Of a DNA stretch of 64,000 nt, positions 36,811 through 46,488 are shown piece by piece. Below the pieces are notes generated by a model. The model saw only the letters and a list, made by a program, of their open reading frames with translations. It did not search any database and was not told where the DNA came from. The first letter of the stretch is position 1. Every line of letters starts with the position of its first letter. The stretch lies in assembly GCF_038069655.2 (NCBI RefSeq), contig NZ_CP150951.2:3126001-3190000 (forward strand), read 5' to 3'. Position numbers and translations under genes: made by a program. Origin of the DNA: Yoonia sp. BS5-3. Its GTDB lineage: Bacteria; Pseudomonadota; Alphaproteobacteria; Rhodobacterales; Rhodobacteraceae.

Positions 36811-41162
<4,352 letters not shown>

Positions 41163-41169
41163 CCGAATA

Positions 41170-41194
41170 GTTCCCGAAATGTTCACAAATGTTC
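41170..41194. promoter_or_regulatory. LexA (SOS) box, distal
   Basis: GTTC-CCGAAAT-GTTC at 41170-41184 is an exact GTTC-N7-GTTC match to the alphaproteobacterial LexA operator. A third GTTC follows at 41191 with a 6-base gap. It lies about 80 bp before the start of the 40-residue membrane protein gene and 8 bp after the recG stop. Confidence 0.82.
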
Positions 41195-41243
41195 CAAAAA
41201 TGTCTTTACACAGGGTTAATGATATGAGAACAAAGTGGCAACA

Positions 41244-41258
41244 GAACATTAAAGGAAC
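41244..41258. promoter_or_regulatory. LexA (SOS) box, proximal
   Basis: GAAC-ATTAAAG-GAAC is the exact reverse complement form of GTTC-N7-GTTC. It overlaps the ribosome binding site of the small gene at 41264. Two perfect boxes before one short gene make LexA control very likely. Confidence 0.82.
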
Positions 41259-41263
41259 ATCAC

Positions 41264-41386
41264 ATGGCCGAAGAGATCAAATCTGTCATTTCCCGTTCGC
41301 GCGATACGCTGCTTGCTGACGCGCTGGGTGTTGCTGCTTTAGTGGTCATGCTTTTCGTTGGATTGGCCTTGCCCGGACTAATCTGA
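41264..41386 (+). CDS. Small SOS-controlled membrane protein (candidate division inhibitor)
   Basis: A 40-residue protein: a soluble N-terminal helix (MAEEIKSVISRSRDTLLAD) and one transmembrane segment (LGVAALVVMLFVGLALPGL). The ribosome binding site AAAGGAA stands before the ATG, and two perfect LexA boxes lie in the upstream gap. Its size and topology recall SidA of Caulobacter, an SOS-induced inner-membrane protein of 29 residues that halts division, but no sequence similarity is claimed. A strong terminator lies downstream at 41526. It is below the usual gene-finder length. Confidence 0.8.
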   Translation: MAEEIKSVISRSRDTLLADALGVAALVVMLFVGLALPGLI

Positions 41387-41525
41387 CTTGCCTGGCGATT
41401 GCGGCCGGTCCATCACACATTGCCCTGTCCCAAGAATGCAATGATTTGATGACCTGCCTGTCTTGTCCAACGCGGGGTTTTGCCTCCCCCAATGGAACAC
41501 CGGACCGGCCTGATCGTTCTTCCTG

Positions 41526-41563
41526 CCGCCGCCATCCTGTCCCGGATGTGCGGCGGTTTTTTT
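41526..41563 (+). terminator. Intrinsic terminator
   Basis: Stem CCGCCGC / GCGGCGG with an inner ATCC/GGAT pairing, followed by seven Ts. It ends plus-strand transcription from the ligA-recG-small-protein run and overlaps the last codon of the convergent IscU-like gene. Confidence 0.85.
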
Positions 41564-44692: not shown

Positions 44693-45592
44693 TTATACGC
44701 CCAAATCGAAGATGAAGAGAGGCGAGACGCCCGACCAGAAATCGTCGCTGGAATCCTGTGCGATCGTTGCGTCCAAACGCGCGCGATCACCTGTTTCATA
44801 GGTCAGCAAGACACGGACGAAGTCGACAGTCGCGCCTTCATCCAAGTCTATTTGGCCAACACTGCCATCAATCCAAAGATCGTCAAGGAAGCTATAGCCA
44901 CCACTGATCTGGATGGTACGGTCATTGAATTCGGCGCCAACAAAGGTTTCAAAAGCACCGCCAGCGCGGAATTCTTCACCAAAGGTATAGTTGCCACGCA
45001 GCCCGAACACGTTTCCGTCGATCTCGGTATTACCGGTGACAAATGCGCGCGCGTCTACTGCACCAGCATCAAAATTGGCGTGCAACTGATAGACCGATCC
45101 TTCACTGGCGGAATTCGAAACGAAAAGCCCGCCCACTTCAAATCCATCAGAGAGGCCATAGCGCCCAAAAAGTGCCGTTTGCGACTCGTCATCTTCCAAC
45201 AATGTGTAGTTGATGGCTGCACCATAAGCCGAGGTCACATATTGCCCGAAAAGCTCATAGCTGGTGCTTTCATCGGTATCACCTGAGCGATTAATCAGGC
45301 CGGCCCCCGCTAAAATTTCTGGTGTGACAACATAGCCACCCCAAATTCCAAGATCGCTGAAACTGCCATCGCCAACGTCGCTGGATACGGACGTGTTATC
45401 GAATATGGCCCCGAAGACATATTGATCGCGTTCGTAATCAATTGCCCCTTGGAAAAACCCCAATGTGGGATCACCGAATTCACCTGTATGCGCCTGGTAG
45501 TCATAGCTTAGTCGGGTGTAGCTAATTCCTTCCGAAGACGCCGCACTGGCAAGCACTGCAAATGCTGCGGCCGTCAAAACTATACGTTGCAT
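44693..45592 (-). CDS. Exported outer-membrane beta-barrel protein A
   Basis: 299 residues with a signal peptide (RIVLTAAAFAVLASAASSEG). Alternating short amphipathic strands joined by Asp/Gly/Ser-rich turns (GGYVVTPEILAGAGLINRSG, FEVGGLFVSNSASEGS) indicate an outer-membrane barrel of porin-like build. The protein ends in FIFDLGV rather than the usual terminal Phe. Substrate unknown. It neighbours a second barrel gene in the same direction, of similar style but different length. Confidence 0.72.
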   Translation of the reverse strand: MQRIVLTAAAFAVLASAASSEGISYTRLSYDYQAHTGEFGDPTLGFFQGAIDYERDQYVFGAIFDNTSVSSDVGDGSFSDLGIWGGYVVTPEILAGAGLINRSGDTDESTSYELFGQYVTSAYGAAINYTLLEDDESQTALFGRYGLSDGFEVGGLFVSNSASEGSVYQLHANFDAGAVDARAFVTGNTEIDGNVFGLRGNYTFGEEFRAGGAFETFVGAEFNDRTIQISGGYSFLDDLWIDGSVGQIDLDEGATVDFVRVLLTYETGDRARLDATIAQDSSDDFWSGVSPLFIFDLGV

Positions 45593-45759: not shown

Positions 45760-46488
45760 TTAGAACTCCACATCATCCAATGACGCGAAATCGACGATTT
45801 CGTAATATCCCCTGCGATCAAAGGTTGTTCCAGGCTTCGCGCCTAGGTCAATCACCGCAGCAAGAACAAAATACGGCTCCTCAATTTCGATCGTTGCTTC
45901 TTCGGCTGTAAACACACCGTAAATCGCCGAAAAACGAGGGCCGGATTGCAAGGTATATTCTGCACCAATTTCAAAAACAGTGGCACTTACATCTTCGACA
46001 GTGAACTTATCAAATGACACGATGCCACTGAACCCGCTTCCTACATTATAGCTGGCGGAAGCGCCCAAGAAAGTTCCATCATCTTCGCTATCGCTTTGAG
46101 AACCGAAATAGGCCTGGATGTCGCCGATCCCAAAATCATAAGCAGCTTCAATACCAAATAGTTCGGTTGTTACGTCGTCAATTCGGTCCTGTCCAAAAAA
46201 CAAACCAACGCTAGTAGCTGAATCGACCGCGTAGATTGCATGCCCTGTCAGGTTTGATACGTCTGATTCAGTGAATTCGAAATCGTAAAATGAAAGGTCC
46301 AGCGCGGCAGAGAACTGCGAAATTAAGCCGAATTCGGCAGAAGCGAAATAATTCACCCCGCCAAATTCATCGATATCTGGAAAGCTGCTGTATTCCAGTC
46401 CAATCGTCGCCCCAGTAAAGCCCTGCGCCATGGCTGTTGTTGCACCTGCGGCGACAAGCACCGTTGAAAGAAGAAGTTTACTGATCAT
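45760..46488 (-). CDS. Exported outer-membrane beta-barrel protein B
   Basis: 242 residues with a signal peptide (KLLLSTVLVAAGATTAMAQG). The rest is strand-and-turn alternation rich in Asp, Glu, Phe, Tyr and Gly, ending in F as expected for BAM-assembled barrels. It shares style with the following barrel gene (Asp-rich turns, YELF-like segments), suggesting ancient duplication, but a direct alignment is not obvious. Function unknown. Confidence 0.7.
   Translation of the reverse strand: MISKLLLSTVLVAAGATTAMAQGFTGATIGLEYSSFPDIDEFGGVNYFASAEFGLISQFSAALDLSFYDFEFTESDVSNLTGHAIYAVDSATSVGLFFGQDRIDDVTTELFGIEAAYDFGIGDIQAYFGSQSDSEDDGTFLGASASYNVGSGFSGIVSFDKFTVEDVSATVFEIGAEYTLQSGPRFSAIYGVFTAEEATIEIEEPYFVLAAVIDLGAKPGTTFDRRGYYEIVDFASLDDVEF

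Follow-up and report, generated by a model that had tools for sequence, protein, structure and literature searches.

In Caulobacter, the SOS-induced inner-membrane protein SidA inhibits division with only 29 residues by acting on FtsW/FtsN (PMC4211646), and GTTC-N7-GTTC is the established LexA motif of this organism (PMC12700426). YneA, SosA and ChiZ are Gram-positive SOS division inhibitors (PMC13396833, PMC6851548), and YneA uses its transmembrane helix to bind FtsW (PMC13396833). On the RNA side, DinR of Klebsiella is an sRNA from the 3' end of the LexA-controlled dinI mRNA and represses ftsZ (PMC10907235). LexA-controlled sRNAs are very rare, and the study of DinR remarks on the lack of others under direct LexA regulation (PMC10907235). 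VcdRP of Vibrio cholerae is a dual-function RNA that combines a 29-residue protein with a pairing sequence (PMC8672173), and StsR/UpsM of Rhodobacter sphaeroides provide an example of sRNA control of division genes in the Rhodobacteraceae (PMC8307010). No SOS division checkpoint of Rhodobacteraceae (Rhodobacter, Paracoccus, roseobacters) is described in the literature that we searched.

The locus reported here, from Yoonia sp. BS5-3, is a concrete and nearly universal candidate for such a checkpoint. It was analysed within a 64-kb window, meaning the whole stretch of 64,000 nucleotides. Our best explanation is a LexA-controlled dual-output transcript giving a membrane protein and a 3'UTR-derived sRNA, an explanation that, taken as a whole, we give an even chance of being right. 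The upstream gene, the promoter region and the open reading frame (ORF) are arranged as follows, in window positions:

39072-41162, + strand: recG, the constant upstream neighbour, outside the SOS unit
41170-41184, + strand: LexA box GTTCCCGAAATGTTC, the first of the two boxes in the preliminary description
41181-41194, + strand: GTTC-N6-GTTC, whose first half-site is the counterpart of the extra upstream half-site seen at 79 of 89 loci
41191-41205, + strand: ancestral LexA box position, GTTCTYAWAAAGTTC in relatives and GTTCCAAAAATGTCT here, one base having been lost (comparison of genus loci)
41205-41210, + strand: -35 element TTTACA, placed by column conservation and TTGACA-like in about 20% of relatives
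41228-41233, + strand: -10 position GAACAA, behind a 17-nt spacer and directly preceded by TGA (extended -10)
41228-41242, - strand (reads GTTG-N7-GTTC): second operator-like site GAACAAAGTGGCAAC, GAAC-N7-CAAC, conserved and covering -10/+1
41244-41258, - strand: LexA box GTTCCTTTAATGTTC, the second box of the preliminary description, overlapping the ribosome binding site; a genus-level feature
41251-41256, + strand: Shine-Dalgarno sequence AAAGGA, inside the second LexA box
41264-41386, + strand: ORF of the 40-residue bitopic membrane protein, product MAEEIKSVISRSRDTLLADALGVAALVVMLFVGLALPGLI

The preliminary description had reported a GTTC-N7-GTTC at 41170 and an inverted copy at 41244 overlapping the ribosome binding site. 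Both were found at these positions, with the Shine-Dalgarno sequence lying entirely within the second box, and they are the only exact matches in the window. Given that shuffled sequences yield 1.49 matches per window by chance, either box alone is weak evidence; two random matches no more than 89 bp apart would be rare, at an estimated 0.3% or so. Genome-wide, the motif is not enriched (105 matches versus 134 for the reversed control). The case for LexA boxes rests on their conservation. Perfect copies of the box also precede lexA and recA in the same genome.

Comparison with congeners changed the picture of the two boxes in part: both are perfect, but the first is not the ancestral one and the second occurs in only about half of the genus. 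Where Yoonia sp. BS5-3 has GTTCCAAAAATGTCT, congeners carry, for example, GTTCTTAAAAAGTTC. A GTTC further upstream creates the perfect box at 41170, displaced 21 bp, or about two helical turns, upstream of the ancestral box. Judged from this comparison, the box at 41170 is a substitute for the decayed ancestral one. The transcription start is predicted near 41240.

The promoter architecture proved to be shared across the family. The preliminary description had named conservation of boxes and frame in relatives as one test of its reading, and the finding survived it: a perfect + strand box was present within 200 nt upstream of the ORF at 89 of 92 unique homologous loci, while the window rate leads us to estimate about 0.2 loci of 92 by chance. 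In nearly all of the 89 loci the box consensus GTTCTYAWAAAGTTC directly abuts TTTACA/TTGACA, and in 79 GAACAA follows the box at a step of exactly 23 nt, which puts it in the -10 position, with a 17-nt spacer and a TG dinucleotide ahead of it. An extra GTTC six bases upstream of the box (79/89) extends the array to GTTC-N6-GTTC-N7-GTTC. GAACAA itself is invariant (89/89), and 74 of these loci carry an exact GAAC-N7-CAAC, a site that the preliminary description had missed while being right about boxes and frame. Since 25 of 28 readable recA leaders of the family carry GAAC-N7-GAAC, frequently in a TGA-GAAC context like the one here, we read GAAC-N7-CAAC as a probable LexA operator one base off the consensus, whose conservation may in part be due to the requirements of the -10 element. 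In four congeners (loci L259, L262, L264 and L265), GAACAAAGnnGCAACA is followed by the near-copy GAACAAAGGAGCAAC, which doubles as ribosome binding site. This suggests that the near-copy of the -10 operator arose by tandem duplication, an operator apparently having been copied into a Shine-Dalgarno sequence. LexA control, as claimed from the start, thus gains strong support from box conservation and from the box shared with lexA and recA of the same genome, and we consider it very probable that the locus is under LexA control, as its sequence predicts.

Some further sites came to light during these comparisons. One locus (L085) has no upstream box and its frame extends to 75 residues; it is possibly a decaying copy. 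In the same genome as the locus under study, GTTCCGTTTTTGTTC lies upstream of a UvrD-like helicase ORF (L319, G000:C1:3738269), which is a further likely SOS gene, and a second S24-peptidase (LexA/UmuD-like) gene is found on the second contig (L275, G000:C2:18682-19014). Promoter-pattern matches before a sulfotransferase-like ORF (L293, L296, L297) initially suggested another SOS gene but probably represent the recA operator, since by its coordinates the match in L297 is about 130 nt away from recA, on the other strand.

We then considered the protein. The product had been described as one helix plus one transmembrane segment, and this was borne out by hydropathy and by AlphaFold2, which places helices at residues 2-11 and 13-39 (pLDDT 90.7). 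The best 19-residue hydropathy exceeds 1.6 in all 207 of 207 members, and the product is almost certainly a translated membrane protein, as predicted. Lysine and arginine are absent beyond residue 20 in every member, whereas a median of three is found among the first 18 residues, a charge distribution that points to an N-in topology. The most conserved positions (R11, T15, D19, G22, L26, L30, L34 and P37) share one helix face, and conservation over residues 12-38 has a significant moment at a 100-degree period (p=0.003 by permutation). Such one-face conservation favours packing of the helix on a partner or on itself and disfavours a non-specific pore; a specific membrane partner would thus be likelier than a pore. 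At the Paracoccus-type loci L162, L217 and L224, the protein seems to be only about 31 residues long and to end in LPAILQA or similar; these short forms keep only the D-x-x-G and the transmembrane core.

The gene was present in 40 of 40 sampled genomes of the genus. Among 248 sampled genera of Rhodobacteraceae, a single-sequence search recovered it from 212 at E<=1, and a broader profile search from 227 at E<=0.1 (217 at E<=1e-3). Two loci (L295 and L298) carry the same promoter before divergent tiny membrane ORFs of 42 and 37 residues, where profile matches are weak; as the profile barely finds them, the prevalence of the family is underestimated. Codon analysis within the genus gave a dN/dS of about 0.13; the changes cluster at third codon positions, and ATG is the start codon of 131 of 134 ORFs. 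These patterns indicate that the protein is under purifying selection. The C terminus of recG lies directly upstream at 93 of 94 examined homologous loci, and an iscU-like gene and hisI lie downstream in most of the first locus set. Further along the window, the - strand ORFs at 44693-45592 and 45760-46488 have signal-peptide-like starts and possibly encode beta-barrel-like secreted proteins. The protein had no match in Pfam, NCBIfam, PHROGs, plasmids or phages. A class-wide sample of Alphaproteobacteria gave weak matches only, nearly all of them pieces of large open frames, and no convincing member; a profile search of 60 genomes, taken to be Caulobacteraceae from the HfsE match of their family, likewise gave no convincing member. 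The protein family is apparently uncatalogued, being short enough to evade annotation.

The sequence 3' of the stop codon is also conserved, and it contains a structured RNA that had escaped the preliminary description:

41387-41563, + strand: structured 3' RNA element, from folding z, covariation and covariance model matches in other genera
41403-41411, + strand: 5' strand of the closing helix, pairing with 41502-41510, with double-sided changes in 6 of 7 modelled pairs
41418-41443, + strand: hairpin CATTGC/GCAATG with loop CCTGTCCC, in which TGTCCCA is nearly invariant in the genus
41451-41462, + strand: mini-hairpin GACCTGCCTGTC exposing CUGCCU, nearly invariant in 26 genus sequences
41471-41490, + strand: hairpin CGCGGGG-TTTTGCCT-CCCCC, from genus alignment and folding
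41502-41510, + strand: 3' strand of the closing helix, from covariation
41526-41563, + strand: intrinsic terminator with loop TGTCCC and T7 tail, from the folding program

Positions 41387-41565 fold at -73.6 kcal/mol (MFE z -5.3), the fold is kept when the whole transcript is folded, and 87 UTRs of other genera have a median folding z of -4.7. Without the terminator, z falls to -2.4; the terminator supplies much of the folding score, but not the covariation of the closing helix. A simple scan found no terminator, probably owing to a bulge in the stem, whereas the folding program finds one. To assess covariation, 26 genus sequences were aligned with MAFFT, an alignment not fitted to any structure, and analysed with RNAalifold. 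Of the 34 pairs obtained, 9 had changed on both sides, including 6 of the 7 pairs of the closing helix; double-changed cells numbered 47 versus 15.6 in shuffles, and slid controls paired far less. A covariance model located the element downstream of the ORF at almost every one of 86 loci, almost all of which belong to other genera, and the model-fitted alignment gave strong structure counts, though it is biased towards the model it was fitted to.

The loop sequences are conserved as well. TGTCCC occurs in 79 of 104 UTRs of other genera, compared with 8.7 in shuffles, and UGUCCC and CUGCCUG occur at 2.5 copies per UTR in other genera, far above shuffles. Compared with other C-rich hexamers, these motifs are also less often paired (0.70-0.71 vs 0.52). 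Rfam holds no such RNA family, with sX13 as the best match (17.4 bits, cut-off 50); the RNA family is apparently uncatalogued there and short enough to evade annotation. We are fairly confident that the 3' RNA is a functional RNA element. With its conserved exposed motifs and its terminator end, it looks like a 3'UTR-derived sRNA, and our proposal that it works in trans as such could prove right or wrong with similar probability. One candidate target was recA, whose ribosome binding site here, AAGGACAGGACATATG, is complementary to CCUGUCC; it was rejected, as GGACAGG is not conserved in the recA leaders of about 30 genomes. GGACAGG was counted before ATG at 104 sites versus 24 for the reversed control, a count that we discarded as target evidence because most sampled sites are not gene starts and AGG itself resembles a ribosome binding sequence.

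The boxes, promoter architecture, purifying selection, one-face conservation and covarying RNA are properties of the sequences compared; from them we infer a course of events that covers LexA occupancy, induction, topology, partner, division arrest, sRNA processing and targets. The locus would form an SOS transcription unit of its own, about 324 nt long and predicted to span 41240-41563. In undamaged cells, LexA would occupy direct-repeat operators lying on and beside the promoter, which would stay off; upon DNA damage, RecA-driven cleavage of LexA would free it. A short leader of about 23 nt would be followed by translation into the 40-residue protein, predicted to have a short N-terminal helix in the cytoplasm and a single transmembrane helix in N-in orientation. 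The conserved face, from R11 to P37, would pack onto a partner in the membrane, most probably one of the septal synthase components (FtsW/FtsI/FtsN), and division would be delayed. The septal synthase is presumed the likeliest partner because known SOS-induced bitopic proteins (SidA, YneA) act on FtsW or its partners. By analogy with these, the protein may delay division, in line with the SOS division inhibitor proposed in the preliminary description; the idea is plausible and leads our list for the protein, but on whether it holds we are evenly divided. The 3' part would fold independently, end in the terminator and expose the C-rich UGUCCC and CUGCCUG motifs, and would most likely base-pair, as a 3'UTR-derived sRNA, with G-rich translation-initiation regions.

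Several other explanations were weighed against this dual-output transcript. Chance boxes before a spurious ORF would agree with the lack of genome-wide enrichment (105 vs 134), but about 90 genera have kept box, spacing, frame and neighbour, and dN/dS is 0.13. This conservation refutes the idea, which retains a negligible probability. The protein could also be a division inhibitor whose 3' RNA merely stabilises or terminates its own mRNA in cis, without targets in trans. Indeed, the element is directly joined to the message and has a terminator at its end, whose removal brings the inflated folding z from -5.3 to -2.4. However, conservation is strongest in the unpaired C-rich motifs whereas the closing helix varies by compensation, and loop sequences kept across genera would be unneeded for a mere stabiliser; we regard a purely cis-acting role as unlikely.

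Many tiny bitopic proteins tune one single membrane protein, and it would be consistent with this if the present one were an SOS-induced modulator of another membrane protein, such as a protease, a sensor kinase (e.g., CckA), a transporter or a respiratory complex. Damage would then be tied to CtrA or gene-transfer-agent control and not to the divisome. The LexA and CtrA/CckA networks are connected in Rhodobacteraceae (PMC6473078), but the locus has no genomic link to those genes, its constant neighbour being recG, maybe by conserved synteny alone, and both the modulator role and this link to CtrA seem to us rather unlikely. A membrane toxin resembling TisB/DinQ, which would depolarise the membrane and slow growth without targeting the divisome, has precedents in LexA-controlled single-transmembrane peptides such as DinQ (PMC3567139). 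Here, however, the predicted leader of about 23 nt is too short for a TisB-like 5' control region, the membrane part without lysine or arginine and the residues conserved on one face suggest a specific partner, and no antisense antitoxin was seen in an Rfam search, which covers known antitoxins, or by inspection by eye. Toxicity of this type appears improbable.

If the dual-output reading is true, one damage-induced transcript would pause division and retune other messages, a checkpoint at both the protein and the RNA level, and a family-wide fusion of sRNA and micropeptide would offer a way to test whether RNA carries part of the SOS response in this clade. In its fullest form, the proposal would be a family-wide, ancient LexA-controlled dual-function RNA, one transcript supplying both a micropeptide aimed at the divisome and a C-rich sRNA that acts in trans; we advance this form tentatively, with doubt outweighing conviction.

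Compared with described systems, the locus resembles SidA in its GTTC-N7-GTTC LexA motif, its tiny size, its single transmembrane segment and its alphaproteobacterial host. Unlike SidA, the protein has 40 residues and a conserved cytoplasmic helix. Its message carries a structured 3' RNA; the 60 presumed Caulobacteraceae genomes hold no detectable homologue of the present family, a comparison made with the family profile and not with the SidA sequence. It shares with YneA, SosA and ChiZ the form of a small bitopic membrane protein, SOS induction being a prediction here, but YneA and ChiZ carry a LysM domain on the periplasmic side, whereas the present protein has few residues beyond its membrane helix. 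TisB and DinQ of E. coli, type I toxins (PMC3567139), are likewise SOS-induced single-transmembrane peptides, but they come with an antisense antitoxin and a long leader, neither of which is seen at the present locus. The nearest precedent for the proposed 3' sRNA is, by analogy, DinR, which also comes from a small LexA-controlled mRNA of similar length (348 nt for DinR vs about 324 nt) with a terminator-ended 3' RNA. However, protein and RNA are unrelated in the two cases, and the pairing region of DinR is Klebsiella-specific whereas the present motifs are family-wide. VcdRP likewise joins a tiny protein and a base-pairing RNA, the latter being a proposal here, in one transcript, but belongs to carbon metabolism and not to the SOS response; StsR is RpoH-controlled and 72 nt long, unlike the proposed LexA-controlled 3' RNA. 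In kind, the locus belongs with the SOS-induced small membrane proteins and the 3'UTR-derived sRNAs, although it matches no named sequence family. What is new is the combination of both outputs in one LexA-controlled transcript, kept across nearly the whole family.
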